From: Alphaproteobacteria bacterium
GTDB lineage: Bacteria; Pseudomonadota; Alphaproteobacteria; Rhizobiales; Xanthobacteraceae
Assembly (NCBI GenBank): GCA_005884685.1
Contig: VBAH01000072.1
Coordinates: forward strand, 62,001 to 126,000
Direction of reading: 5' to 3'
DNA length: 64,000 bases
A program made the position numbers and the translations under genes. Positions 8,397 to 63,719 of this stretch are shown here, piece by piece (within the stretch, counting starts at the first letter, position 1; every line of letters begins with the position of its first letter). Under the pieces are notes generated by a model. The model ran no database searches and had not been told where the DNA came from. It saw only the letters and a program-made list of their open reading frames with translations.

Positions 8397-8924
8397 TCAT
8401 CCGGGGGGATCGGGGCGCTTTTGCGGCGTGTCCCCGAAGAAGGACTCATACAAGAGTCCAACGACCCCGGCAACGATGGCGGCATCCGCAAGGTTAAATA
8501 CGTACCAGGTGAAATTGAAGCCCGGCGTCGTGATGTGGAACAGCACGAAATCGGCCACCGCGCCATAGGCCAGGCGGTCGATCGCGTTGCCGAACGCCCC
8601 GCCGATGATCAGGCCGAGAGCGAGCGCCGTGAGGCGGGATTCCGCCCGCGCGAGCCAGACCCACAGGATCAGGACCGCGCCGGCTTTCAGCGCCAGCAGC
8701 ACATAGCGGCCGAGGTCGCCCTCCTGCGGGAACAGGCCGTAACTGATGCCGGTGTTCCAGGTGAGCACCAGATCGAGAAACGGCGTGAGGTGCACGATCC
8801 CGCGGTTGGCGAGGTCGAACACGTTGAGCAGCCAGAGCTTTGCCGCCTGATCGATGGCGCAGACGATGAGCGCGACGATAAGCCCGTAGCGGGTCAGCGG
8901 GCCGAAGAGGTAGCGCGCGAGCAC
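8397..8924 (-). CDS. lspA: Lipoprotein signal peptidase
   Basis: LspA cleaves the signal peptide of diacylated prolipoproteins in the inner membrane. The 175-residue protein has four hydrophobic segments. The two catalytic Asp motifs are visible: NAIDRLAYGAVADF and FNLADAAIV. The start is a GTG at 8922-8924 ([14 protein letters not shown]) whose first base is the last base of the ileS stop codon, so translation is coupled to ileS. This ileS-lspA order is common in bacteria. At least one lipobox protein in the window (53394-53945) would be a client. Confidence 0.95.
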   Translation of the reverse strand: MLARYLFGPLTRYGLIVALIVCAIDQAAKLWLLNVFDLANRGIVHLTPFLDLVLTWNTGISYGLFPQEGDLGRYVLLALKAGAVLILWVWLARAESRLTALALGLIIGGAFGNAIDRLAYGAVADFVLFHITTPGFNFTWYVFNLADAAIVAGVVGLLYESFFGDTPQKRPDPPG

Positions 8925-11900
8925 TACTCCGCCGCCCTGGGGATGGCATCCCATTCGCGCAGCGCCTGCGCGTCGCGCGGCGTCACATCGGGATAGTCCG
9001 GATCGGAGCCGACGGCGCCCGAGATTTTCCACGAGCGCGCGCACTTTTTGCCCTCGGCGAGCTTCGGCACCACCGCGACACCCGGCACGTCGGGGAGTCG
9101 GAACGCCTCTGCGGGCCCCTCGCCTTCGACCAGGGTCGCGGCCGACGTGATCGACACCTCGGCGAGATCGACGTCGACCAGCGCGGCGAACAGGTCGACG
9201 TCGGACACATAGACGATCGGCGCCGCCTCGAGCGACGACCCGATGCGCTTGGCGGCGCGTTCCAGTTCGAGCGCACCGGTGACGACGCGGCGCACCTCGC
9301 GCACCTTGCGCCACTTCTCGGCGAGCGCCTCGTTGCGATAGTCCGCCGGAATCTCGGGGAACATTTCGACATGCACCGAGCTCTCCGCCCCCGGATAGCG
9401 CGCGAGCCAGGCCTCTTCCGTCGTGAAGCACAGCATCGGCGCAAGCCATGTGACGGTGCAACGGAAGAGCTGGTCGATCATCGTAAGCGCGGCCTTGCGC
9501 GTCGCGGACGAATACGGATCGCAGTAGAGCGCATCCTTGCGGATGTCGAAGTAGAACGCCGAGAGATCGACGGTCATAAACGCATTGAGCGCCGCAAAAA
9601 TGCGCTTGTAGTCGAACTCGGCGTAAGCCTGGCGCACAAGCGCGTCGAGCTCGGCGAGCCGGTGCAGCATCAGCCGCTCAAGCTCCGGCATGTTCTCCGC
9701 CGCGACGCGATCCTCGGGCCGGAAATGCGCCAGGTTACCGAGCATCCAGCGCAGCGTGTTGCGCAGCTTGCGGTAGGTGTCGGTGAAGTTCTTCAGGATC
9801 TCCGGCCCAAAGCGGATGTCGTCGGTGAAGTCGGAGGCGACCACCCACAGCCGCAGGATGTCGGCGCCGTGCGTGCGCATCACGTCCTGCGGCGAGATCG
9901 TGTTGCCGCGCGACTTCGACATCTTGTCGACGCCCTTCTCGTCGAGGATGAAGCCGTGGGTCAGCACGACGTCGAACGGCGCGACGCCGCGGGTGCCGCA
10001 GGATTCGAGCAGCGAGGACTGGAACCAGCCGCGATGCTGGTCGGACCCTTCCAGGTACATCACCGTGTCGGAGCCGCCATCCTTGCGGCGCTTGATGCCG
10101 GCGAGCGTCGGGAAATGGCGCGGGTCCTCCAGCACGAAGGCATGCGTCGAGCCCGAGTCGAACCAGACGTCGAGGATGTCGTCGACTTTCTTCCAGTCCT
10201 CATTGGCACGGCTGCCGAGGAAGCGCTCGCGCGCGCCCTCTTTGTACCAAGCGTCGGCACCCTCGGCCTCGAACGCCTCGCCGATACGCCTGTTGACCGC
10301 CTCGTCCTGCAGGATCTCGACCGAGCCGTCGCCCTTCTCGCGCACGAACACCACGATCGGCACGCCCCAGGCGCGCTGGCGCGAGATCACCCAGTCGGGC
10401 CGGCTCTCGATCATGCCGTTGATGCGGTTCTCGCCCTGCGGCGGGACCCATTTGGTTGCCTCGATGGCCGACAGCGCGCGGTGCCGCAGCGTGTCGTTTG
10501 CCTCTCCCCGCTCATTCCCGCGTAAGCGGGAATCCAGTTCTTGTTGCTCTGGGTCCCCGCCGGAGCCTGTCATCGGGCCGGCCGAAGGCCGGACCCGTTG
10601 GCGGGGACGAGCGGAAAAGATTGGCTTGTCCATCGCGATGAACCATTGCGGCGTATTGCGGAAGATCACCGGCTTCTTCGAGCGCCACGAATGCGGATAC
10701 TGGTGCTTCAAGCGCCCGCGCGCGATCAGCATGCCGTTGTCGGTCAGCACCTTCATGACAATACCGTTGGCGTCGCCCTTCTCACCTTTGTCGTTGAGCA
10801 CGCGCGCGCCGGTGAAACCCGGCGCGTGATCCGTGAAGGCGCCGTTCTCGTCAACGGTATACGGGATAGCCGTGTTGATGCCGCGCGATTCCAGCTCGCG
10901 CGCGTTCGCGGTCCACACGTCGAAGTCCTCGCGGCCGTGACCGGGCGCCGTATGCACGAAGCCGGTGCCGGCATCGTCCGATACATGGTCGCCGGCAAGC
11001 AGCGGCACGATGAATCCGTAACCTCGCGCGTGACCTTTAAGCGGATGGCTCGCGCCAAGCATCGCGAGGTCTTCGGCCGGGACCGTTCTCACCTTTTCGA
11101 ACGCGGTGACGCGTGCCTGCTTGAATACGTCCTCGGCGAGCTTGTCGGCGAGGATCAAGAGATCGCCCGCTTTCGCCCAATTGTCCGAAGGCGCATCCAT
11201 GACTCTGTAAAGTCCGTATGCGATCTTGGATGAATAGCTGATCGCGCGGTTGCCCGGGATCGTCCACGGCGTGGTCGTCCAGATGACGATCGAGGCATTC
11301 CAGTACGCCTTGTTCAGCGTCTTGAAACACTGATTATCCAGCGCGTGCGTTACCGGAAACTTCGCCCAGATCGTATCGGAGGTGTAATCCTCATACTCCA
11401 CCTCGGCTTCCGCGAGCGCGGTCTTCTCCACCACGCTCCACATCACCGGCTTCGACCCTCGGTACAATGTGCCGTTGGCGGCGAACTTCATCAGCTCGCG
11501 CGCGATCTGCGCCTCGGCGGCAAAGCTCATCGTGGTGTACGGACGCGCCCAGTCGCCCTCGACGCCGAGCCGCTTGAACTCCTCGCGCTGTACGCCGAGC
11601 CAGTGCTCGGCGAAGGCGCGGCACTCGGCGCGGAATTCGTTGATCAGCACCGCATCCTTGTTCTTGCCCTTGGCGCGGTATTCCTCCTCGATTTTCCATT
11701 CGATGGGCAGGCCATGGCAGTCCCAGCCCGGCACATAATTCGAGTCATAGCCGAGCATCTGCTGCGAACGCGTCACCACGTCCTTGAGGATCTTGTTGAG
11801 CGCGGTGCCGATGTGGATGTGGCCGTTCGCGTAGGGCGGGCCGTCGTGCAGCACGAACTTCACACGCCCGCGCGCGGCATCGCGCAGGCGGTGATAGAGG

Positions 11901-12016
11901 CCGAGCCGCTCCCAGCGCGCAAGGATTTCCGGCTCCTTCTGCGGCAGGCCGGCGCGCATCGGAAAGTCGGTTTGCGGCAGGAACAGCGTCGCGCTGTAGT
12001 CGCGGGCATCGGTCAT
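8924..12016 (-). CDS. ileS: Isoleucyl-tRNA synthetase carrying an in-frame repeat insertion
   Basis: IleRS charges tRNA-Ile. The 1030-residue class I enzyme shows HIHIG at 66-70 and KMSKS at about 698-702, and it keeps the PQWFIAMDK and [15 protein letters not shown] blocks. Between those blocks, residues about 467-503 (bases 10508-10618) have no counterpart in the normal family pattern. They are the translation of a palindromic repeat that is otherwise intergenic in this window. The frame is kept throughout. Near the C-terminus (KCARSWK onward) only one of the expected zinc-ligand cysteines remains. The start is ATG 12014-12016. ribF, the usual upstream partner, is absent here and lies at 50 kb. 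Confidence 0.95.
10508..10618. repeat. Palindromic repeat inserted in frame within ileS
   Basis: This stretch has the same ends and internal landmarks as the intergenic repeats at 44381-44483 and 47977-48079. On the minus strand it reads TCCGCTCGTCCCCGC, then GGGGACCCAGAGC, GAACTGGATTCCCGC and finally GGGAATGAGCGG. Its middle holds a further hairpin (GGTCCGGCCTTCGGCCGGCCC). At about 111 bases, a multiple of three, it adds roughly 37 codons without a stop. Confidence 0.9.
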
Positions 12017-18019: not shown

Positions 18020-18025
18020 ACTGAT

Positions 18026-18440
18026 CCAGCCCGCGAGCCCCTGCTCCAGCTTGGCGAACAGCGGATTGTCGCGCGTGAAGACGTCGTCGATGTCGGCGAC
18101 GGTGACGCTGTCGGCGTCCTCAGTTCGTAGGGCGCAATAAGTGAGCGCAGCGAACGCATTGCCGTCCGACGGCGAGGCGGCGCAATGCGCTTCGCCCCGC
18201 CTTCGCGGGGGCATGCTTATTGCGCCCTACCCCTAGCCCGTGAGCCCCTGCTCCAGCCTGGCGAACAGCGGATTGTCGCGCGTGAACACGTCGTCGATGT
18301 CGGCCACGGTGATGCTGTCGGCGCCCTCAGTTCGTAGGGCGCAATAAGTGAGCGCAGCGAACGCATTGCGCCGTCCGACGGCGAGGCGGCGCAATGCGCT
18401 CCGCCCCCGCCTTCGCGGGGGCATGCTTATTGCGCCCTAC
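18026..18440. repeat. Two tandem units of hisG 3' end plus GTAGGGCGCAATAAG palindrome
   Basis: Two consecutive units each hold about 95-98 bp matching the last 30 codons of hisG (18026-18120 and 18233-18330). Each is joined to a palindromic element beginning GTAGGGCGCAATAAG and ending CTTATTGCGCCCTAC (18127-18230 and 18334-18440). The hisG-like parts read on the minus strand and still encode the [16 protein letters not shown] block; the outer copy has lost the stop codon (TAG to TGG). Both carry Asp where real HisG has Tyr (VADIDYVF), so they have diverged together. Confidence 0.92.
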
Positions 18441-18469
18441 GCATCACCCCCGCCCGCCAACAAGCCGGC

Positions 18470-20790: not shown

Positions 20791-20856
20791 TACTTATCGC
20801 AAACGGCGGGCGGGCGCTGCAGCCGGGCGGGCGCGGACGACATTGGGTCCGCCCGG

Positions 20857-21130
20857 GACGGCGAGGCGGCGCAATGCGCTGCGCCCCGCCTTCGCGGGGG
20901 CATGCTTATTGCGCCCTACCCCCTAGCCCGCCAGCCCCTGCTCCAGCCTGGCGAACAGCGGGTTGTCGCGCGTGAACACGTAGTCGATGTCGGCCACGGT
21001 GACGCTGTCGGCGCCCTCAGTTCGTAGGGCGCAATAAGTGAGCGCAGCGAACGCATTGCGCCGTCCGACGGCGAGGCGGCGCAATGCGCTCCGCCCCCGC
21101 CTTCGCGGGGACATGCTTATTGCGCCCTAC
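20857..21130. repeat. Truncated palindrome, third hisG-end copy and full palindrome beside hisG
   Basis: Reading away from hisG, a full palindrome (21024-21130) is followed by a hisG 3' copy of about 98 bp (20923-21020). That copy is intact to its own TAG and carries the same VADIDYVF codons as the real gene. A second palindrome is cut off after about 63 bp (20857-20919). Beyond the cut lies unrelated DNA with the kinase gene. These units match those at 18026-18440 in order and direction. Confidence 0.92.
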
Positions 21131-21132
21131 CC

Positions 21133-22110
21133 CTAGCCCGTGAGCCCCTGCTCCAGCCTGGCGAACAGCGGGTTGTCGCGCGTGAACACGTAGTCGATGT
21201 CGGCCACCGTGACGCTCTCGGCGCCCTCGCCGCGCAGGAAGCTCGCGAGCGAGTGCACCTGGCCCGGCGGACAGTGCAGCGTGATCATGCCGGACGAGGT
21301 CGGCCCGCCGAACGGCGTCGCGACGCCGAAGCGCTGCTTCGCCTCGGCCAACACCTTGTCGTCGATGCCGGGGGCGCGCGTGCGCACCTCGCGGAAGGCG
21401 CGCGCGCGTCCCTGCGCGGCGATGCGGTCGAGGATCAGCCGCGCGGTCTCGCGTTCCGTCGCGCCCCATTCGGCGGCGCGCGCCGCGATCAGGTTCGCCT
21501 CCGAGCGCAGCATGATGCCGTCGTCGAGCACCTTCAGGCCGTTCGCCGCAAGCGTCGTCCCGGTGGTGGTGATGTCGACGATCAGCTCGGCGGTGCCGGC
21601 CGCAGGCGCGCCCTCGGTCGCGCCGAGGCTCTCGACGATGCGGTAGTCGATGATGCCGTGCGCGGAAAAGAACTGCCGCGCCAAGTTCACGTATTTCGTC
21701 GCAACGCGCATCTTGCGGTCATGCGTGGCGCGGAACGCGGTCGCGACATCGTCGAGGTCGGCCATCGTGCGCACGTCGATCCAGGCCTGCGGCACCGCGA
21801 CCACCACGTTCGCCTCGCCGAAGCCGAGCCGGTCGATCAGCACGACGCGCGCCTCGGCGTCGGAATACATCTCGCGGATCTGGTCCTCGCCGGTGACGCC
21901 GAAATGAACCGCGCCCAGACCGAGCTGCGTCGTGATGTCGGACGCCGACAGATACGCCACTTCGACGCCCGGAATATTGGCGATCGTGCCGCGGTACTCG
22001 CGCGCGCCGCGCGGCTTGACGAGTTGCAGCCCGGCGCGCGCGAAGAACGCCTCGGCGTTCTCCTGCAGCCGGCCTTTCGAGGGCACCGCGAGCACGAAGG
22101 GCGCGCTCAT
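21133..22110 (-). CDS. hisG: ATP phosphoribosyltransferase, catalytic subunit
   Basis: HisG joins ATP and PRPP in the first step of histidine synthesis. The 325-residue protein has the HisG patterns [12 protein letters not shown] at the N-terminus, FGVTGEDQI and the PRPP-binding stretch [14 protein letters not shown]. It overlaps hisZ by four bases (ATGA), so both subunits are made together. The final 30 codons ([14 protein letters not shown] motif region to the stop) are the portion that has been copied three more times downstream. The intact gene itself looks normal to its stop at 21133-21135. Confidence 0.95.
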
Positions 22111-27034: not shown

Positions 27035-27226
27035 GGGGACACTCCGCGGGGTTGGCGTCGGGAGTAACCGAACGCCCGGCAGCCGGCAAGCGCCGCTCAA
27101 ACCCTTCGCCGGCAAGCGGATTTGCCGCGCCGCAGCGGCGTTTTTCACCATTCGTTAAGCATTCCTTTACTGGGAACTCGCATCTTCCGGAGGCGGCGAA
27201 CCGTCGCCGAAAGCCTGGGGGATTCC

Positions 27227-28396
27227 ATGCAATTGATGCTTCGCGGCACGCTTGCCGCCATCGCGCTCGGCGCGATCCTCGCCGGTCCGGCCTGCGCCGA
27301 AGACGGCGTCACCGCCGACACCATCACGTTCGGCCAGGCCGCCGTGCTGGAAGGGCCGGCCTCCGCGCTCGGGCTCGGCATGCAGCTCGGCCTCAACGCG
27401 GCTTTCAACGAGGTCAACGCCAAGGGCGGCGTGCACAGCCGCAAGCTCAAGCTGATCAGCGTGAACGACGGCTACGAGCCGGACCGCGCGATCGTAGCGA
27501 CCAAGAAGCTGATCGAGGAGGACAAGGTGTTCGCGCTGATCGGTCCGGTGGGCACCCCCACGTCGGCCGCCGCGCAGCCGATCGCAACCGCCGCGAAGGT
27601 GCCGTTCATCGGCGCGTTCACCGGCGCCGGCTTCCTGCGCAACCCGAAGCTCGAAAACGTCATCAATGTGCGCGCGAGCTACGACGCCGAGACCGAGGCG
27701 TGGGTCAAGCACCTCACCGAGGACCTGAAGATCTCCAAGATCGCGATCTTCTACCAGGACGACGCGTTCGGCCGCGCCGGCCTCTCCGGCTTCAAGAAGG
27801 CGATGGACAAGCGCAACATGGCGATCGCCGCCGAGGCGACCTATGAGCGCAACACCGTGGCGGTGAAGTCCGCGCTGCTCGCGCTGAAGCGCGCCGAGCC
27901 GGAAGCGGTGGTGATCGTCGGCGCCTACAAGCCGGTCGCCGAGTTCATCAAGCTCTCACGCAAGACCGGCTTCAACCCGGTGTTCGTCAACATCTCGTTC
28001 GTCGGCGCGAACGCGCTCGCCAAGGAGCTCGGCCCGGAGGGCAAGGGCGTGATCGTGAGCCAGGTCGTGCCGTTCCCGGGCGACGCCTCGCTCAAGGTGG
28101 TCGCGGACTATCAGGCGGCGATCAAGCAGGCGGGCGGCGAGCCCGAGTTCGTCTCGCTCGAAGGCTATCTCGCCGGCCGCCTCGCGATCGCGGCGCTGGA
28201 GAAAGCGGGCTCGGACGTGACGCGCGAAAGCCTGCTCAAGGCGATCAAGGACACCGGCAAGTTCGACATCGGCGGCCTGCCGATGACGTTCTCGGCGGAG
28301 AAGAACGAGGGCCTCGACAAGGTGTTCATGACCATCATCGAGGCGGACGGCTCGTTCAAGCCGATCGAGAAGATGGTCAGGGTGTCGAGCAACTGA
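27227..28396 (+). CDS. Branched-chain-amino-acid-type ABC transporter substrate-binding protein
   Basis: A 389-residue periplasmic protein with a signal peptide (cleavage near PACAED, about 24). A type I periplasmic-binding fold of the LivJ family follows (ITFGQAAVLEGPASALGLG, INVRASYDAETEAWVKHL, FYQDDAFGRAGLSGF). Such receptors bind amino acids, amides, urea or aromatic acids, and the ligand cannot be told from sequence. No Liv permease or ATPase genes are nearby. The next gene downstream is a chemoreceptor, so it could feed a chemosensory as well as a transport role. The start is ATG 27227. Confidence 0.9.
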   Translation: MQLMLRGTLAAIALGAILAGPACAEDGVTADTITFGQAAVLEGPASALGLGMQLGLNAAFNEVNAKGGVHSRKLKLISVNDGYEPDRAIVATKKLIEEDKVFALIGPVGTPTSAAAQPIATAAKVPFIGAFTGAGFLRNPKLENVINVRASYDAETEAWVKHLTEDLKISKIAIFYQDDAFGRAGLSGFKKAMDKRNMAIAAEATYERNTVAVKSALLALKRAEPEAVVIVGAYKPVAEFIKLSRKTGFNPVFVNISFVGANALAKELGPEGKGVIVSQVVPFPGDASLKVVADYQAAIKQAGGEPEFVSLEGYLAGRLAIAALEKAGSDVTRESLLKAIKDTGKFDIGGLPMTFSAEKNEGLDKVFMTIIEADGSFKPIEKMVRVSSN

Positions 28397-28416
28397 CAAC
28401 GCGAGGTAGATCCGTT

Positions 28417-28519
28417 TCCGCTCGTCCCCGCGAAAGCGGGGACCCAGCCCCCACCCTACCCTCCCCCGCAAGCGGGGGAGGGATAAAGGGAGGGGGCCAC
28501 TTTCGCGGGCATGAGTGGA
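28417..28519. repeat. CTCGTCCCCGCGAAAGCGGGGACCCA family repeat, copy 1
   Basis: It begins TCCGCTCGTCCCCGCGAAAG, forming a tight stem with CGGGGACCCA. An internal CCCTCCCCCGCAAGCGGGGGAGGG hairpin follows, and it closes with CGCGGGCATGAGTGGA. It fills most of the gap between the receptor gene and the chemoreceptor gene. The same ends occur at 44381, 46981, 47977, 62624 and inside ileS. Confidence 0.85.
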
Positions 28520-28574
28520 GGCGGTTTTGGGGGCACAAGGCGGCGCCAGCCGCCGGGGTTTTGGGGGATTGTCC

Positions 28575-43775: not shown

Positions 43776-43881
43776 GCCTTCGCGATTTGGCCCTGCCGTC
43801 GCGCCCGCACGCGGCGCGATGGACCCAATTTGCGCGCCGGCGATTGTAGGATGACCGGCGTGTAGCAGCAGCATCCTGCCA

Positions 43882-44367
43882 ATGAACAAGTCTCTTCAAG
43901 CAGCGGCCGAAGACCTCGTCGCGCGCGCGGCGCGCGAGAAGCTGACCGTCATCACGGCGGAATCCTGCACGTCCGGCCTGCTCGCAACGGTGCTGTCGGA
44001 AGCACCGGGCGCGGGCACGATCCTGCACGGCGGCTTCGTCACCTATACCAAGGAGCACAAGCGGGTCGCGCTCGGCGTGCCCGAGCAACTGTTGCGCGCG
44101 AAGAGCGCCGTTTGCCGCGAGGTCGCCTGCGCGATGGCGCAAGGTGCGCTCGAGCGCTCGACCGCCGATCTCGCCGCCGCCATCACCGGCGTGGCAGGTC
44201 CCGAGCCGGACGAGGACGGCAATCCGGTCGGGCGCGTCTACATCGCGGCCGCGCGGCGCGGCGGCACGGTGGACTGCTTCGAGAAGAACTACGGCGCGCT
44301 CGGGCGCGACGCGGTACGCGAGGCGGCGATCGCGGATGCCATCGCGGCGCTCAAGCGGCTGATTTAA
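43882..44367 (+). CDS. pncC: Nicotinamide-nucleotide amidohydrolase PncC (CinA C-terminal type)
   Basis: A 161-residue enzyme that deamidates NMN to NaMN for NAD salvage. It corresponds to the C-terminal domain of CinA, with the motifs TAESCTSGLLA, GGFVTYTKEHK and ITGVAGPEPDEDG. The N-terminal CinA domain is absent, as in many stand-alone PncC proteins. The start is ATG 43882 in an AT-light context with weak GCATCC upstream, so the ribosome-binding site is poor. It is a single gene followed by a palindromic repeat. Confidence 0.92.
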   Translation: MNKSLQAAAEDLVARAAREKLTVITAESCTSGLLATVLSEAPGAGTILHGGFVTYTKEHKRVALGVPEQLLRAKSAVCREVACAMAQGALERSTADLAAAITGVAGPEPDEDGNPVGRVYIAAARRGGTVDCFEKNYGALGRDAVREAAIADAIAALKRLI

Positions 44368-44380
44368 AGCGATCCCATGT

Positions 44381-44483
44381 TCCGCTCGTCCCCGCGAAAG
44401 CGGGGACCCAAGGGCCACGAAGAAGAAAGAACTGGATTCCCGCTGAGCCTGTCCCCGCGCAGGTGGGGACGGGAATGAGCGGA
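44381..44483. repeat. CTCGTCCCCGCGAAAGCGGGGACCCA family repeat, copy 2
   Basis: It runs from TCCGCTCGTCCCCGCGAAAG to GACGGGAATGAGCGGA. Internal landmarks GAACTGGATTCCCGC and CCTGTCCCCGCGCAGG are also present in the copies at 47977 and in ileS. It separates the convergent pncC and DUF6496 genes. Confidence 0.88.
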
Positions 44484-44490
44484 GAGCGTG

Positions 44491-44884: not shown

Positions 44885-45312
44885 ACCCTGCTCGCCGAGG
44901 GGCGCCATCATGAGGCGTCTTGGTGGCGGAGCAGGCCGGAGGCGGCGCCGGAGAACGGGCGCGGTCCTCCGGTGGCGGGCGCCCGGCAATTCCGGGCCTT
45001 CGCCGGTGCGGCGCCCGCGGGCGTGCTGACGCACAGCACGCACTCGGGCGGCGTCGGGGCTCCGCCCGGGGGTACTACGGCCCCCTGCCAGGAGCTGGCT
45101 GATGGCAGCGCGTCAAGCGCGTTGCTGAAAGCGCGGCCCGATGCCGTAAGGAAAACGCCGCCGCAGAGCGCCGAGAGGCGCGCCGGCCTCCGTCAATGGC
45201 CGGTCATCTCTGGCCGAATTTTCCGGAGATGGGCCCAACCGCGAGGCGGCCACCGGGTGCGGCGATCCGCACCAGCGCCTGTCGGCGCTCTGCTCCCCTC
45301 TTTTTTCGGGGA
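44885..45312 (+). ncRNA. Candidate structured RNA (unidentified)
   Basis: This stretch lacks a recognisable protein gene but is full of hairpins. Two perfect stems with four-base loops lie back to back: GGTGCGG-CGAT-CCGCACC (45256-45273) and AGCGCC-TGTC-GGCGCT (45274-45289). Then CCCC/GGGG encloses a T-rich loop (45295-45311). Further pairings occur upstream (CGGCC / GGCCGG near 45185-45208; ATCTC near 45206 with GAGAT near 45226). A promoter-like sequence precedes it. A 39-codon Arg-rich frame (44910-45029, MRRLGGGAGRRRRRRTGAV) with GAGG upstream could be a leader peptide. A 182-codon frame (44867-45412) also spans it but looks compositional. It is not tmRNA, RNase P or SRP RNA as far as I can see. 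Confidence 0.4.
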
Positions 45313-45509
45313 ACGGAAAATGGACAAAGGGCACCCGCCGCCCTCCTCGAAGCGGGCGGCGCAGCATTGGCTCAAAGCATTGGCTCAACAAGCAAACCAC
45401 AAGGTCGTATGACGATGCGCTTGCGCGAAATCCGCCGCTCATGGACAGTGATCGAGGCAGGCCGCGCGCGCGATTCGCGGCGCAGCCGCGGCGGACCAAG
45501 GGTCGGACT

Positions 45510-46964
45510 ATGGGGCGCCTGAGCGCCGTCTTCATCGCGTTCTGCATGTTGCTGATCGCGGCCTCGATCGGCGCCGTCACCTATTTGTCGTTCGGCTTCA
45601 CCGCAATGGAAGCGACGGTCGTTGCCGTCGCGGTGCTCACCGCGCTGGTGATGGTCAACTCGGTAACCAGCCGGCAGCGCGACCGCTCCGACATCGGCAG
45701 CCAGATATCCGACCTCTCGCGCGCCACGGCCGACATCGGCCGCCACGTCTCCGAGCTCGATCGGCGCATCGTCGCGGTGGAGCAGGATGTCGCGGACGCG
45801 GCCGACAGGAGCCGCGCCACCACCGAGCCGCTCACCGCCGAGATCGACGAGCTCGGGCAGCTGGTGAAGGAACTGGCCGATGCGGTCGCCGCCCACGAGC
45901 ACATGCTCGAGTCGGCGATCAACAACGCGGCGCCCGCGCGCGCCGAGCCGATGCGGGCGCCGGCCTTCGCGCCGGAGCCGGTCACGCGCGCCGATGCGGC
46001 CGACAAGGCCGAACTTGGGGAGCCGGAGCGCCCCACCGGGCGCCCGCTCAGCGGCCCGTTCCAGGGGATGGAGCACGCGGCGATCGTCGCGCAGATCGCG
46101 CGCGCCGTCGAAGCCAATCGCGTCGACCTCTTCCTGCAGCCGATCGTCACGCTGCCGCAGCGCAAGGTGCGCTACTACGAGGCGCTGGCGCGGTTGCGCG
46201 ACGACGACGGCACGCTGTTTGCGCCGGAGGATTTCCAGAGCTACGCCGAGAACAGCGGGTTGATGCCGGCGATCGACAATCTGATGGTGTTCCGCTGCGT
46301 GCAGGTGGTGCGGCGGCTCTCGAGCAAGAACCGCGATGTCGGGCTGTTCTGCGCCATCTCCGGCTCGACTTTGGTCAACGCGCTCACCTACCGCGAGATC
46401 GCGGATTTCCTCGAGGCGAACCGGGTGCTCGCGCCGCATCTGGTGCTCGAGCTCTCGCAGTTCGCGGTGCGCGCGATGAGCCCGATCGAGCAGGAATGCC
46501 TCGCCACGCTCGCCGAGCTCGGCTTCCGCTTCTCGATGGGCCACGTCGCGGATCTGCGCGTCGAGCCGCGCGAACTCGCCGAGCGCGGCTTCCGCTTCAT
46601 CAAGGTGCCGGCGCCGCTGCTGCTCAGCCGCGCGGCCGCGGCGGGTGACATCCATCCCGCGGATTTCTCCGACCTGCTCGGCCGCTTCGGCATCGACCTG
46701 ATCGCCGAGAAGATCGAGGGCGAGACCACGGTCGTGGACCTGCTCGATTACGATGTGCGCTTCGGCCAGGGCTTCTTGTTCTCGCCGCCGCGCCCGGTGC
46801 GCGCCGAGGTGCTGCAGGGACTGGCGGAACGGGCGGCGTCCACGAAACTATCCGAGCCGGCCGAGATGGCTGCGCCGCCCTCCCCGGCGGAGCCGCGTGC
46901 GGCCGCCCCGCGCGCCGGCATGGCGCAGCTCGCGCGCGGTATCGTGCGCCGCGCGCAAGGCTAA
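45510..46964 (+). CDS. Membrane-anchored degenerate EAL-domain protein
   Basis: A 484-residue protein. Two N-terminal transmembrane helices (about 5-27 and 33-50) are followed by a likely coiled coil (60-125), a Pro/Ala linker, an EAL domain (about 195-455) and a Pro/Ala-rich tail. EAL domains hydrolyse c-di-GMP. Here YEALARL (Glu224) is kept, but the essential DDFGxG loop is replaced by FSMGHVADL (near 343), and the ELTE-type motif reads ELSQ. Catalysis is therefore unlikely; a binding or scaffold role fits better. The start at ATG 45510 gives a proper first helix. Confidence 0.85.
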   Translation: MGRLSAVFIAFCMLLIAASIGAVTYLSFGFTAMEATVVAVAVLTALVMVNSVTSRQRDRSDIGSQISDLSRATADIGRHVSELDRRIVAVEQDVADAADRSRATTEPLTAEIDELGQLVKELADAVAAHEHMLESAINNAAPARAEPMRAPAFAPEPVTRADAADKAELGEPERPTGRPLSGPFQGMEHAAIVAQIARAVEANRVDLFLQPIVTLPQRKVRYYEALARLRDDDGTLFAPEDFQSYAENSGLMPAIDNLMVFRCVQVVRRLSSKNRDVGLFCAISGSTLVNALTYREIADFLEANRVLAPHLVLELSQFAVRAMSPIEQECLATLAELGFRFSMGHVADLRVEPRELAERGFRFIKVPAPLLLSRAAAAGDIHPADFSDLLGRFGIDLIAEKIEGETTVVDLLDYDVRFGQGFLFSPPRPVRAEVLQGLAERAASTKLSEPAEMAAPPSPAEPRAAAPRAGMAQLARGIVRRAQG

Positions 46965-46980
46965 TCACATGCGATGTGTT

Positions 46981-47084
46981 TCCGCTCGTCCCCGCGAAAG
47001 CGGGGACCCATCCCCCACCCTACCCTCCCCCGCAAGCGGGGGAGGGATAAAGAGAGGGGGCCCGCTTGCGCGGGAATGAGCGGA
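46981..47084. repeat. CTCGTCCCCGCGAAAGCGGGGACCCA family repeat, copy 3
   Basis: It is almost identical in layout to the copy at 28417-28519, including the internal CCCTCCCCCGCAAGCGGGGGAGGG hairpin. It ends CGCGGGAATGAGCGGA. It lies between the EAL gene and the HAD gene, 17 bp before the latter's start. Confidence 0.88.
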
Positions 47085-47101
47085 AAGAAAACTGATACTC
47101 A

Positions 47102-47965
47102 ATGACACTCCCGGTCCTGACCGATCATTTCGCCGCGCTTGCGCCGGACTACGACGCGATCCTCTCCGACGTGTGGGGCGTGATCCACAACGGCGTCGCG
47201 TCGTTTCCGGCGGCGAGCGAGGCGCTGACGCGGTTTCGCGCGCAAGGCGGCACGGTGGTGCTGATCTCGAACGCGCCGCGCCCGGGCGCGCAGGTCACGC
47301 GCCTGCTCGATCACCTGCACGTGCCGCATTCGGCCTACGACGCGATCGTCACCTCGGGCGACGTAACGCGCGATTGCGTCGCCAAACGGGCCGGCGAGCC
47401 GGTATTCCACATCGGCCCCGAACGCGACCTCACGATCTTCACCGGCCTCGACGCGCCGTTCGGGCCGCTCGAGACGGCGCGCTACGTGATCTGCTCGGGA
47501 CTGTATGACGACGAGGTGGAGACGCCGGACGACTACCGCGAGCTGATCGGCAAGATCCGCGCGCGCAACCTGTTCATGGTATGCGCCAATCCGGATGTGG
47601 TGGTCGAGCGCGGCGATCGCCTGGTGTATTGCGCGGGCGCGATCGCGGATCTCTATGCCGAACAGGGCGGCGAGGTGTTCTATGCCGGCAAGCCGTACCG
47701 GCCGCTCTACGAGCTCGCGCTTGCGGAGGTCGCGCGCGCACGCGGCAGGCCCGCGCCGCTGGAGCGTGTGCTGGCGATCGGGGATTCGGTGCGCACGGAT
47801 CTCAAAGGCGCGCACGATCTCGGCGTCGACTGCCTGTTCGTCACCGCCGGCATCCATGCCGAGGAGCTTGGCCACCGCGACGATCCGGATCCGGCCGCGC
47901 TGCGCGCGATGTTCGCCGCCGCCGGGCAGATGCCGAAGGCGGTGACGCGCAGGCTGGTGTGGTGA
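47102..47965 (+). CDS. HAD-superfamily phosphatase, TIGR01459 (class IIA)
   Basis: A 287-residue cytoplasmic hydrolase. The nucleophile motif is LSDVWGVIHNG with Asp23; the second Asp of the usual DxD is Trp in this subgroup. The motif ISNAPRP supplies the Ser/Asn, and GDSVRTDLKGA supplies the acidic C-terminal motif. This matches the alphaproteobacterial TIGR01459 group related to NagD-like sugar phosphatases. The substrate is not known. The start is ATG 47102, directly after a repeat element, with no strong ribosome-binding site visible. Confidence 0.88.
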   Translation: MTLPVLTDHFAALAPDYDAILSDVWGVIHNGVASFPAASEALTRFRAQGGTVVLISNAPRPGAQVTRLLDHLHVPHSAYDAIVTSGDVTRDCVAKRAGEPVFHIGPERDLTIFTGLDAPFGPLETARYVICSGLYDDEVETPDDYRELIGKIRARNLFMVCANPDVVVERGDRLVYCAGAIADLYAEQGGEVFYAGKPYRPLYELALAEVARARGRPAPLERVLAIGDSVRTDLKGAHDLGVDCLFVTAGIHAEELGHRDDPDPAALRAMFAAAGQMPKAVTRRLVW

Positions 47966-47976
47966 AGAATCTTGGC

Positions 47977-48079
47977 TCCGCTCGTCCCCGCGAAAGCGGG
48001 GACCCAGAGCCACCAAAAAGGAAGAACTGGATTCGCGCTGGAGCCTGTCCCCGCGCAGGCGGGGACGGGAATGAGCGGA
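47977..48079. repeat. CTCGTCCCCGCGAAAGCGGGGACCCA family repeat, copy 4
   Basis: It runs from TCCGCTCGTCCCCGCGAAAG to GACGGGAATGAGCGGA, with GAACTGGATTCGCGCTGGAG and CCTGTCCCCGCGCAGGCGG inside. It is the closest match to the copy at 44381. It separates the convergent HAD and cheZ-like genes. Confidence 0.88.
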
Positions 48080-48085
48080 TAAGAC

Positions 48086-48721
48086 CTACGGAAACATCTC
48101 GTCGACCTTGGCCTGGTCGACACCGCCGCCCGCGAGCTGCGGGCCGTGCAGCATGAATTTCTCCTTGCGCTCGGCGCGCTCGCGTTCCTGCTCGGTGAGG
48201 AAACCGTCGATGTCCTTCGCGTTCATCACGTCGGCGAAGCGCGAGACGCGCTCCTCGATGTGCTGCAACGTCTCGACCACCTTGGCGATACGCTGGCCGG
48301 TGATGTCCTGGAACGAACAGGCCTCGAAGATCACCAGCATCTTCTCCTCGACCAGCGCCTTGTAGGCGGCCGGGTCGCCCGCGTCGGCAGCCATCACCGC
48401 CTCGGCGCACTCCATGATGGTGTTGGTTGCGGCTTCGGTCGCCTGCACGATCGCGTCCAGCTCCTCGCCGGCCGCCGGAATGCGGGTGTTCTTCAGGTCG
48501 TTGACTTGTAGCGCCCCGATCTCATGGCGCATGGACTCGATATAGCCGGCGATCTCGCGCAGCTCGCGATAGACCTTGGCATCCATCGCCTGGAAGAAGC
48601 TCTGCAGCGACTGCGCGGAGACCTCGGCCAGCGCGATGATGTCGTGGAACGTGACGCTCTCGCGCTTCTGCTTGAGAAAATCGACCAGCCGGTCGAAATG
48701 GCTCGCATCCGCCAGCGCCAT
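48086..48721 (-). CDS. CheZ-like protein phosphatase next to cheY
   Basis: A 211-residue helical protein with FEACSFQDITGQRIAKVVETL, the CheZ active-site helix (Asp and Gln of FQDITGQ). The C-terminus VDQAKVDEMFP resembles the CheY-binding peptide. It lies 87 bp downstream of a cheY gene on the same strand, so its substrate is probably that CheY-P. A paralogue is at 12229-12948. Alphaproteobacteria often lack classical CheZ and use phosphate-sink CheYs, so two CheZ-like proteins in one window is notable. The start is ATG at 48721. Confidence 0.87.
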   Translation of the reverse strand: MALADASHFDRLVDFLKQKRESVTFHDIIALAEVSAQSLQSFFQAMDAKVYRELREIAGYIESMRHEIGALQVNDLKNTRIPAAGEELDAIVQATEAATNTIMECAEAVMAADAGDPAAYKALVEEKMLVIFEACSFQDITGQRIAKVVETLQHIEERVSRFADVMNAKDIDGFLTEQERERAERKEKFMLHGPQLAGGGVDQAKVDEMFP

Positions 48722-48808
48722 GGCTGAACTCCTGCCGTCACCCGCGCGCGGCGGGCCTGCCGCACCCCGTTCGTCCGCGATGTTCTCGTTTTGCGCGGAC
48801 GGTTTGCA

Positions 48809-54549: not shown

Positions 54550-54638
54550 CCGTCATGGCCGGGCTTGCCCCGGCCATCCACGTCTTCGTCTCAAAGTGAG
54601 CAAGACGTGGATGCCCGGCACAAGGTCGGGCATGACGG
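54550..54638. repeat. Palindromic repeat between groES and groEL
   Basis: CCGTCATGGCCGGGC at the left matches GTCGGGCATGACGG at the right, with inner arms CCACGTCTT / AAGACGTGG. It is of the same family as the repeats flanking arfB. In the groESL mRNA it would form a long hairpin between the two coding regions, ending 30 bases before groEL. Confidence 0.85.
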
Positions 54639-54662
54639 AGAAACACAAATTCATCGGAGTAA

Positions 54663-61367: not shown

Positions 61368-61859
61368 CTACTTCGCGCGCCGATACCGGTTGCTTGCGCT
61401 GCCCCTGCCGCCGGCCACATTGGGATTGGTGTTGACGAATTCATCGGCCGTGAGTCTGTCGACGGTGCGCGTCTGTGCCTCGCCCTCCCAGTTGGGAAAC
61501 GTGCTCGATACGATCTTGTAGGTCACGGTGTTCTTCTCCTCATCAACCGTGTAGGTGCCGAACACCGCCAGGCTGCGACGATTGATGTCGGCGTATTCCT
61601 CCGGCGTGCCGGTGAGGCGGTTGCCGGAGGCGAATTTCGGTACGTCGCTCGCCACGTGGATTTGCGCGAAGCGCCCGTCCGGCGTGAAGATCAGGACGCC
61701 CTTCGGGGTTTCGCCGAACGGGAAGGATTGCTTGCCGTCGGGCGCGCTCACCTCCGCGACGACGAAATCCCACGTGCCGACGATGCGTTCCTTCAGGCTT
61801 TGCGCCGCAGCGCCGTCGGCCAGCAGCGCAAGCGCGGCAATCAATGAGATCCGTTTCAT
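61368..61859 (-). CDS. Secreted lipocalin-like domain protein
   Basis: A 163-residue protein with a signal peptide (MKRISLIAALALLADGAAAQ). A beta-barrel-like domain begins LKERIVGTWDFVVAEV and includes KGVLIFTPDGRFAQIHVASD and FGTYTVDEEKNTVTYKIVSS. This matches the lipocalin-like family common in Rhizobiales, which is expected to bind a small hydrophobic ligand in the periplasm. Ligand and role are unknown. The start is ATG 61857-61859. Confidence 0.82.
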   Translation of the reverse strand: MKRISLIAALALLADGAAAQSLKERIVGTWDFVVAEVSAPDGKQSFPFGETPKGVLIFTPDGRFAQIHVASDVPKFASGNRLTGTPEEYADINRRSLAVFGTYTVDEEKNTVTYKIVSSTFPNWEGEAQTRTVDRLTADEFVNTNPNVAGGRGSASNRYRRAK

Positions 61860-61994
61860 GACGTTCCTCGTGTGTTGGGTTCTCAAGCTAGCCCGAAATC
61901 GGCGGCTGCGCGTCACCCCGCTTCCGAGCGGCCTGGCGCTCTGGTAGCCTCAGGCGCGTCATTGCTCGCAATAACAACATTCGGGAGGATTTTC

Positions 61995-62609
61995 ATGAAA
62001 CGCTGGCTCGCTCTCGCGGCGCTGCTCGCAGCCGCCGTCGCATTCTGGCCCGCGCAGCAGGCGCCCGCCCAGGGCGGCACCGTGCTGTTCGATGGCAAGA
62101 CTCTCGATCACTTCAACACGATCGGCGACGCCAATTGGCGCATCGAGGACGGCGTCGTGGTGGCCGATAAGGGCAACGGCTTCCTGGTGACGAAGGAAAG
62201 CTACGGCGACTTCCAGCTGCGCGTGGAATTCTGGGTCGGCCCGGACGCCAACAGCGGCATCTTCATCCGCGCGACCGATCCGGCGAAGCTCACCGCCACC
62301 AATGCCTACGAGGTCAACATCTGGGACGACCGTCCCGAGAAGGACTACGCGACCGGCGCGATCGTCGGCGTGGCGAAGGTCGACCCGATGCCGAAGAGCG
62401 TCGGGCAATGGAACGTGTACGAGATCACCGCCAAGGGCGACACCTTCACCATCGTGCTCAACAACAAGCAGACTGTCGTGGGCAAGGACGCCAAGCACGC
62501 CAAGGGTCACATCGGGCTCCAGCACGGGCTCGGCAACAAGGACGCAGCCGGCGTCGTCAACGACAAGGGCGTGGTGAAATTCCGCAAGGTCGAGATCAAG
62601 GCGCTGTAA
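61995..62609 (+). CDS. Secreted DUF1080 (3-keto-disaccharide hydrolase-like) protein
   Basis: A 204-residue protein with a signal peptide (ending near APAQG, about 26). A DUF1080 jelly-roll domain follows: VLFDGKTLDHFNTIGDANWR at the start, GDFQLRVEFWVGPDANSGIFIR in the middle and VVKFRKVEIKAL at the end. Some DUF1080 proteins hydrolyse 3-keto-glucosides or bind glycans. GGGAGGATTTTC precedes ATG 61995. It is divergent from the lipocalin-like gene. The substrate is unknown. Confidence 0.88.
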   Translation: MKRWLALAALLAAAVAFWPAQQAPAQGGTVLFDGKTLDHFNTIGDANWRIEDGVVVADKGNGFLVTKESYGDFQLRVEFWVGPDANSGIFIRATDPAKLTATNAYEVNIWDDRPEKDYATGAIVGVAKVDPMPKSVGQWNVYEITAKGDTFTIVLNNKQTVVGKDAKHAKGHIGLQHGLGNKDAAGVVNDKGVVKFRKVEIKAL

Positions 62610-62623
62610 GGGCGCGAAATTCC

Positions 62624-62694
62624 TCCGCTCATGCCCGCGAAAGCGGGCATCCAGGGCCAAGAACTGGGTCCCCGCTTTCGCGGGGACGAGCGGA
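62624..62694. repeat. Short member of the CTCGTCCCCGCGAAAGCGGGGACCCA family
   Basis: It starts TCCGCTCATGCCCGCGAAAG and ends TTCGCGGGGACGAGCGGA. The two ends are reverse complements of the family ends, and it lacks the middle hairpin. It lies between the convergent DUF1080 and Bug genes. Confidence 0.82.
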
Positions 62695-62712
62695 ACGCGA
62701 GCGCGGCGAACC

Positions 62713-63687
62713 TCAGTTCAGCTTGATGTTCACCTCCTTGACGATGCGCGCGTATTTCTCCGAGTCGGCGCGCGCGAGCTTTCCGAGCCGTTCCGTATCG
62801 CCGCCGACCGGCTCGGTCGCCGCCTTGAACAGCGCGTCGCGTGTCGCCTTGTCGGCGAGCGCCTTGTCGCACGCGGCGTTGAGCTGCGCGATCGCGGCGG
62901 CCGGCGTGCCGAGCGGGGCGAACACCGCAAACCACGATTCGAGCGTGACACCCTGATAGCCGACCTCCTGCAGCGTCGGCAGATCCGGCATCGAGGGCGA
63001 GCGCGCGTCGCCGGATTGCGCCAGCAGCCGGATCGTGCCGGCTTGCGCATGCGGCAGTGGCGCGGTCGGCCCGAGGATCGCGAACTTCACATGCCCGGCG
63101 ATGAGATCGTTGATCGCCTGTCCGGCGCCGCGATACGGCACGTGCTCCAGCTTGATGTCCGCCGCCTTGGCGAACCACTCCATCAGCACGTGCTGGTTCG
63201 AGCCGACGCCCGAGGTCGCGCAGCCGAGGCTCGACAGCTTCCTCGCCGTCGCCACGAGTTCGGCGACCGATTTGACCTCCAGCGACGGATGAACCGCGAG
63301 CACCTGCGGCTGACGGCCAAGCAGGCTCACCGGCGCCAGGTCCTTGAGGAAATCGACGTTGAGTCTCAGCACATGCGGTGAGCTCGCCACGTTGTCGTTG
63401 CAGACGAGGAAATTATAGCCGTCCGGCGTGGCCTTGATCCCGGCATCGATCCCGATCGTGCCGCCTGCGCCGCCGGTGCGGTTCTCGATGAATACCTGCT
63501 GGCCGAGGCTGCGCGAGAGGTGCTCGCCGACGAGCCGTGCGATGAAGTCGAGCCCGCCGCCTGCCGCAAGATGCACGATGAAGCGCACCGGACGGGTCGG
63601 CCAATCCTGTGCGCGGGCGATCTGCGGCGAAAACAGCGTGCTGGCAGCTATGCCTTTGACGAAAGTGCGGCGCGCGATACGTCTCAT
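62713..63687 (-). CDS. Bug-type receptor protein with a Tat-like signal
   Basis: A 324-residue periplasmic receptor. The N-terminus has twin arginines (IARRTFVKGIAAS), suggesting Tat export. Bug motifs follow: WPTRPVRFIVHLAAGGGLDF, FIENRTGGAGGTIGIDAGIK, HVPYRGAGQAINDLIAGHVK. It is a paralogue of the receptor at 57599-58591, with distinct binding-loop residues. The adjacent upstream gene on the same strand is a polysaccharide-deacetylase-type enzyme of the kind often found with catabolic Bug proteins, so a nitrogen-containing acid could be the ligand; this is inference. Confidence 0.9.
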   Translation of the reverse strand: MRRIARRTFVKGIAASTLFSPQIARAQDWPTRPVRFIVHLAAGGGLDFIARLVGEHLSRSLGQQVFIENRTGGAGGTIGIDAGIKATPDGYNFLVCNDNVASSPHVLRLNVDFLKDLAPVSLLGRQPQVLAVHPSLEVKSVAELVATARKLSSLGCATSGVGSNQHVLMEWFAKAADIKLEHVPYRGAGQAINDLIAGHVKFAILGPTAPLPHAQAGTIRLLAQSGDARSPSMPDLPTLQEVGYQGVTLESWFAVFAPLGTPAAAIAQLNAACDKALADKATRDALFKAATEPVGGDTERLGKLARADSEKYARIVKEVNIKLN

Positions 63688-63719
63688 ACCTTGCTCCCTT
63701 CAAACTTTCGATTTTGTTT

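Follow-up and report, generated by a model that had tools for sequence, protein, structure and literature searches.

To our knowledge, palindromes inside genes have mostly been described as individual cases. Among the closest described systems are the Rickettsia palindromic elements (RPEs; in particular RPE-4 and RPE-6), whose insertions are in frame according to the available texts of PMC2229807 and PMC10969869, the former with guanylate kinase as a tested case. The available part of PMC3767692 counts the beta subunit of phenylalanyl-tRNA synthetase among the RPE hosts, places RPE peptides in solvent-exposed areas, describes different RPE groups close together in some orthologous genes, and raises the possibility that RPE-4, -6, and -7 insert at hotspots. 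Intragenic REPs are reported for several species in PMC3733652, as far as its text is available, many of them in repair genes and others in tRNA synthetase genes, the latter in X. oryzae, E. litoralis, and S. alaskensis. In the same text, recB of two Xanthomonas species shares a REP site at approximately the same place, other genes of the category of recB carry REPs at differing sites, and REPs of the CGTC-1 type are stated not to be associated with a tyrosine transposase gene. The remark in the preliminary description of our locus that such inserts are rarely noted outside Rickettsiales was too strong, as several of the species in PMC3733652 are non-rickettsial. The name ileS is absent from the main text of that paper in its available form. 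The titles and abstract openings listed in literature searches yielded no palindromic repeat in ileS, and the supplementary list of tRNA synthetases with REPs in PMC3733652 may include it. The repeats Br-REP1 and Br-REP2 of Bradyrhizobium are located in 3'-UTRs and intergenic regions, and the available text of PMC5082802 contains no in-frame insertion of either.

The window, i.e. the whole stretch of 64,000 nucleotides analyzed here, is part of a genome of 5.39 Mb in 107 contigs (G000) and contains an ileS gene that harbors a palindromic repeat element (Table 1). The element keeps the reading frame of ileS and contains no stop codon. RPEs are characterized as palindromes of ~100-150 bp that interrupt conserved protein genes without shifting the frame, and this was also found for the ileS element. 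It appears to work like an RPE; in both cases short palindromes lie in frame within conserved genes. In contrast to the rickettsial case, the host is a 5.4-Mb genome of the Hyphomicrobiales (an order deduced from named relatives), the repeat is found mainly between genes, the 30 copies seen including one in a clear conserved host gene, and several repeat groups use one ileS site across many genera. The likeness described here concerns the mode of insertion.

Table 1. Features of the ileS locus and further dimers of the element family in the window
Feature	Position	Strand	Description
ileS, isoleucyl-tRNA synthetase (IleRS)	8924-12016	-	1030 aa; KMSKS at residues 697-701
Linker PIFSARP...EAND	10493-10624	-	44 residues (464-507), between FIAMDK and TLRHRAL
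Palindromic repeat element in ileS	10506-10615	-	pair of hairpin units in inverted order, with the GCTC heads at the outside and the CCAG tails at the inside
First unit	10549-10613	-	GCTC-GTCCCCGC ... GCGGGGAC-CCAG, enlarged loop
Nested third palindrome	10561-10600	-	GGGTCCGGCCTTCGGCCGGCCC inside; fills the loop of the first unit
Second unit	10509-10537	+	CGCTC-ATTCCCGC-GTAA-GCGGGAAT-CCAG, CGTC-1-like
Dimer	28411-28520		between periplasmic binding protein gene (27068-28393) and MCP gene (frame from 28515)
Dimer	44379-44484		just downstream of cinA (43855-44364), which lies upstream and is the only one of the two neighbors recognized by Pfam
Dimer	46975-47085		between EAL-domain gene (45150-46961) and HAD hydrolase gene (47096-47962)
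Dimer	47975-48080		between HAD hydrolase gene (47096-47962, +) and CheZ gene (48089-48808, -)
Short dimer	62620-62697		between 3-keto-disaccharide hydrolase gene (61848-62606, +) and TctC gene (62716-63699, -)

On the minus strand the second unit reads CTGG-ATTCCCGC-TTAC-GCGGGAAT-GAGC. CGTC-1 REPs have an 8-bp stem with A and T as the first bases, a 4-nt loop, and an unpaired CCA tail, and the second unit likewise possesses an 8-bp stem starting with AT (ATTCCCGC/GCGGGAAT), a GTAA loop, and a CCAG tail. As described in the available text for CGTC-1 REPs, the ileS family forms dimers, attains a high copy number, and is mostly intergenic. In contrast, the terminal CGTC (often TGTC or CCTC) of these REPs was not present; the tag was GCTC in the 24 aligned second-unit copies of 30 loci. 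In addition, the stem of the first unit (GTCCCCGC/GCGGGGAC) begins with GT and encloses the nested 40-bp palindrome, and the loop of the first unit is enlarged in the ileS copy. Because of the GCTC tag, the element is termed REP-like here and is not filed as CGTC-1 despite its resemblance. The comparison with RPEs in the preliminary description was nevertheless apt, since the available text of PMC3733652 equates RPE-6 of R. conorii with a CGTC-1 REP. The nested palindrome is multi-copy by itself, as evident from genome matches confined to query positions 65-127, 72-127, and 79-124. The ileS element folded with z values of -5.5 (DNA) and -5.3 (RNA), none of 200 shuffled sequences (0/200) folded equally well, and Rfam gave no match at the element. 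Br-REP1 and Br-REP2 are comparable as intergenic palindromes from the same order as the ileS host.

The linker of IleRS comprises 7-13 residues in most of the relatives compared, 12 in the congener G002 and 13 in the congener G001. In a solved bacterial IleRS (PDB 8c9e), the two aligned blocks are separated by 3 residues, as against 48 in the window protein. Across the order, the linker is hypervariable in both length and sequence. The insert had been described as an in-frame, stop-free sequence of about 111 bases between conserved IleRS blocks. Frame, absence of stops, and location were all borne out, but the net gain over G002 is 32 residues or 96 bp, and the 37 residues or 111 bp apply only relative to relatives with 7-residue linkers. 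We take the linker to connect the CP1 (editing) module, at its end, with the catalytic core. An AlphaFold2 model of the window IleRS, calculated from an alignment of 29 rows (the window protein and proteins of related loci), was too poor for placing the loop (mean pLDDT 70, pTM 0.57, low values in the catalytic core too). Residues 467-503 were indeed missing in relatives: all 29 relatives in which the site was readable lacked the element. They comprised a fragment from G001 and 28 of 29 further loci. An empty site from the same species was not seen, so that a target duplication is not definable.

Searches with the ileS element showed that 39 other places in its own genome match at E <= 5.8e-12, with a DNA identity of 75-98% over ~40-150 bp. 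This number rests on 40 of 290 first-look candidates being scored, all 40 of which matched, the ileS site included. When the ileS flanks were kept in the query as a built-in control, the only rows restricted to the flanks were the ileS genes of G001 and G002; beyond ileS itself, the remaining rows lay on the insert, two of them extending 20-30 bases into the flank. Members of the element family occur in both congeners, yet outside their ileS genes. The window itself holds six dimers, including the ileS copy. Their positions were read as 10509-10613 (ileS), 28419-28517, 44383-44481, 46983-47082, 47979-48077, and 62626-62692. The three intergenic copies named earlier (at 44381, 46981, and 47977) were all recovered, and two more, those at 28411 and 62620, had been missed. 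All five lie just outside genes bearing Pfam domains, and seven stop-free frames crossing four of the five contained no Pfam domain. Together with the 39 genome matches, these dimers confirmed that the insert belongs to a repeat found elsewhere mainly between genes. Given how strongly the linker varies among relatives, in length as well as in sequence, an ordinary variable loop could in principle resemble a repeat by chance. With 39 further matches at the identities given and the whole two-unit anatomy preserved, we assign this explanation a negligible probability. It was rejected on the basis of the genome matches, the flank-control search, and the near-consensus state of the copy described below.

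In an alignment of second units, 3 of 57 bases of the ileS copy deviated from the consensus of the family, the individual copies ranging from 1 to 7. The consensus was derived from 24 copies (ileS and 23 of 29 other copies of the own genome; 6 were not alignable and the spacer was not counted), which had been selected for their likeness to the ileS copy. Accordingly, either the ileS copy is of no great age within its family, or uniformity is maintained among the copies. The earlier proposal that the element is mobile, or was so recently, gains indirect support from this near-consensus copy and from the presence of the family in the congeners but not in their ileS. The suggested search for copies inside other coding genes returned ileS and no second clear Pfam host among the 30 best copies of the genome. 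Fourteen of these 30 (ileS and 13 others) are situated in a stop-to-stop ORF with at least 50 codons on each side. In one (L016), a Pfam permease domain lies ~200 residues downstream of the repeat; another (L026) is associated with a TetR protein, the domains of which start after the repeat, and the other repeat-spanning frames among the 30 showed no Pfam domain. Only in ileS was the repeat seen within a Pfam-recognized protein and flanked on either side by conserved sequence, and ileS is hence the sole clear host among the 30 best copies. Further hosts may exist among genes that lack Pfam domains. Another palindrome family, CCGTCATGGCCGGGCTTG..., is present in the window at 54550-54640 and 2824-2943 and has a distant inverted partner.

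Contigs of several draft genomes end at the ileS linker (G017, G100, G132, G154, and G206), as expected where a repeat breaks an assembly. The linker is thus a place where assemblies fail, and where ileS of a draft genome shows a gap or ends with a contig, a repeat may be the cause. These breaks could also speak for an assembly or sequencing artifact, and a decaying ileS gene would be a related explanation; we regard both as barely credible. The window copy is in frame and internal to a 237-kb contig, inserts were also found in the single-contig genomes G148 and G780, and short single-unit inserts occur in the isolates Rhodopseudomonas pseudopalustris DSM 123 and Afipia sp. OHSU_II-C1. As for decay, the window IleRS departs from near-invariant columns (>=98.5% conserved) at one position only, as judged from 169 full-length rows representing 159 distinct genes, and a decaying gene was ruled out on this ground. 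No second IleRS row of G000 was present among the matches listed down to an E value of ~6e-17, and the gene in the window appears to be the only IleRS gene of its genome.

Different palindromic repeats were found in frame in the same IleRS linker of many other genera. Among 80 named loci, inspection by eye revealed a repeat-type linker in seven (L084, L088, L094, L101, L136, L139, and L156), three of which (L084, L136, and L156) did not fold significantly. In a survey of the family, 371 of 391 genomes matched a 101-residue query spanning the linker of G002, and 31 genomes, that of the window included, gave at least two matches. The other 30 split genomes and 7 low-scoring ones were re-examined by eye; the resulting counts therefore take in split or low-scoring genomes, and shorter inserts bridged by one alignment (L043, L094) fall outside them. 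A readable repeat-type insert was present in 20 of these 37 genomes, and in 19 of the 20 it folded with z <= -3 (L207, -1.2; for G007, G120, and G237 the value was taken from a second copy of the locus). In one further genome, G241, an additional ileS copy (contig C108) carried a repeat-type insert, and in four a repeat-like sequence reached the contig end (G017, G021, G206, and G245). The linker was cut by a contig end, leaving its class unreadable, in five (G100, G132, G154, G189, and G328), was long and not repeat-like in six (G024, G083, G087, G113, G123, and G351), and was normal in one (G334).

A survey of the order yielded matches in 362 of 397 genomes, and all 19 genomes outside the family with at least two matches were re-read. 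Five linkers folded with z <= -3 (L234, L241, L242, L244, and L245), six looked repeat-like with weaker or no z values (L231/L250, L233, L236, L239, L243, and L249), five were long and not repeat-like (L232, L235, L237, L238, and L240), and G655, G755, and G570 represented duplicates or contig ends. The long linkers lacking repeat character, six within and five outside the family, indicate that the linker grows by other routes too. A sample of 106 genomes drawn from the whole class included 104 from outside the order, of which 100 gave a match; G780, a single contig, and G778 were split by inserts of repeat-like appearance, and G829 had a longer linker that was not repeat-like. The prediction that the site tolerates an added loop is strongly supported, because other repeats fill the same linker in many other species.

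The inserts were assigned by eye to repeat or non-repeat and to groups A, B, and C, the groups being set from the peptides before a tree was calculated; group C is a loose set of repeats of the GEG/GGGE type, in which several families may be combined. Br-REP2 ends with CCCCGGAATGA, similar to group A inserts. One insert of each group with its own ileS flanks was searched against five genomes per group. The numbers of matches per genome, in which a palindrome can count on both strands, were 80, 63, 63, 75, and 77 for group A, 24, 47, 6, 12, and 45 for group B, and 56, 66, 69, 49, and 31 for group C. Thus all 15 genomes searched hold further copies of the insert; even the lowest (G120, 6 matches) has three places besides ileS, and G195 (12 matches) has seven. 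Apart from the five ileS rows in each search, the rows listed, which for groups A and C were a part of all rows, were on the insert or no more than ~11 bases off it, except for one group B row extending 26 bases past the insert.

Of 198 loci (170 distinct), 41 distinct ones had linkers of at least 30 residues; z values <= -3 were obtained for 27 of the 41 as compared with 0 of 79 control windows from the same genes, and values <= -2 for 30 of 41 and 2 of 79, respectively, in a set where loci were partly picked for a long linker and related genomes were counted separately. Repeat-type linkers range from 14 to 78 residues. The reading phase used was open in all 28 repeat-type inserts inspected, as reading requires, and 26 of the 28 have a stop in another forward phase. 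Comparison of near relatives showed that native linker DNA was replaced as well as lengthened. At residues 464-508, 34 of the 169 full-length IleRS rows contain at least 15 extra residues; elsewhere, protein ends aside, extensions of this size occur at ~224-230 in seven rows, at 371 in two, and at 770 and 879 in one each. Repeat-like inserts at other places of ileS were seen in L213 and L153 (~224), L244 (~770), and L159 (~879), the genome with L213 (G071) having two repeat-like inserts within one ileS. The linker is therefore not the sole tolerant place of the enzyme.

A FastTree tree was calculated for 174 IleRS rows with the linker excised. The distribution of repeat versus none requires at least 25 changes, and starred branches alone force 15 changes for group C, 6 for B, 3 for A, and 7 for long non-repeat linkers, a change being a gain or a loss without distinction. 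Five rows were too short for the tree (L217, L218, L219, L225, and L229), and four of its row pairs represent the same gene twice; further pairs among the loci are L235/L252, L237/L251, L238/L253, and L241/L255. In Rhodopseudomonas-like rows, full dimers, single units, and empty linkers are neighbors. Inserts thus seem to come and go.

Several repeat groups enter the same short stretch, different groups are found in sister rows (L037 with B beside L214 with C), and single units alternate with full dimers in neighboring Rhodopseudomonas-like rows (L043 and L136 versus L206 and L208). Such a pattern might arise from targeted insertion, by which a mover, or recombination with residual repeat units, prefers the linker DNA and the hotspot is not due to selection alone. 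Hotspots for RPE-4, -6, and -7 are indeed one of two possibilities given in the available text of PMC3767692. For the ileS linker we consider targeting improbable: the groups are unlike in sequence and ends, which renders a common DNA target unlikely, the exact insertion points vary by some codons, no clean target duplication was seen, and a protein that is conserved apart from one short, tolerant loop would yield the same pattern.

The recurrence within an essential gene, the strong RNA hairpin (z -5.3), and four related genomes with much the same insert (L203, L206, L208, and L209) would also agree with exaptation, i.e. with an added loop or mRNA hairpin that tunes IleRS activity or ileS expression and accounts for the repeated insertions at the site. 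This appears very unlikely, because the peptides of the different groups have nothing obvious in common, some close relatives are without any insert (L148 and L154 beside L206; L113, L056, and L096 beside L215), and the length of repeat-type linkers varies severalfold, as given above.

From sequence comparison, we are fairly confident that the ileS insert is a REP-type dimer that landed in frame in a permissive loop, that its peptide is tolerated, and that the hotspot arose by selection. Non-coding palindromic dimers of the REP type would proliferate and insert widely through the genome, carried by a putative enzyme acting in trans. Insertions in conserved genes would normally be purged by selection; the IleRS linker would tolerate tens of extra residues when the element brings an open frame, and the resulting peptide would be translated and tolerated rather than useful. 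Copies would accumulate in the linker and later decay or be replaced, and the hotspot would be a product of selection. More broadly, and with some reservation, one may speculate that the IleRS linker is a conserved safe harbor in the Hyphomicrobiales, and sporadically beyond (G780, G778), which several kinds of small palindromic elements have colonized, lost, and recolonized, possibly with some targeting. If so, the sequence of IleRS would preserve a record of past repeat activity in each lineage.

GTAG-type repeats like the RAYT-linked REPs and REPINs occur in the same genome and in the window; the ileS element differs from them in sequence and tag and is not of the GTAG kind. In the window, GTAG-type palindromes (GCGCAATGCGCT...TTATTGCGCCCTAC) form clusters at 18023-18449 and 20850-21349, and similar units surround the sole PF01797 (RAYT-like) gene found in G000 (L257, G000:C83:233081-233365). 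This gene had been considered as the mover of the element and was dropped, the repeats around it being of another kind.

In-frame intragenic palindromes were known before; what appears to be new, as far as sequences tell, is that one linker of one essential gene has been invaded repeatedly. The ileS linker seems to be a site where repeat DNA naturally settles, and because the site is common to the repeats of many lineages, the significance of the finding exceeds that seen in the preliminary description. That repeats of several kinds have entered an essential enzyme at one and the same site in dozens of genomes amounts to a replicated natural experiment, and near relatives with and without an insert open the insertion step to dissection. 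The shared site suggests that palindromic repeats are still spreading in these Alphaproteobacteria. Whether an insert is tolerated, targeted, or useful is directly testable with a single soluble enzyme.

Two loci from two genera, L196 (1414-1515) and L201 (625-726), have long, non-palindromic, less G+C-rich linkers at the same ileS site with a common peptide, GG..D.AWN...GR....F.ALD.N..PS..WDTLRKRAL, which may perhaps stem from an exchange of a gene segment. Furthermore, the class I HIGH motif of the window IleRS reads HIGT, the last histidine being replaced by threonine (11804-11806, minus strand). The same motif was present in 43 of the 169 aligned full-length rows, or 41 of the 159 distinct genes, and is possibly a natural active-site variant.
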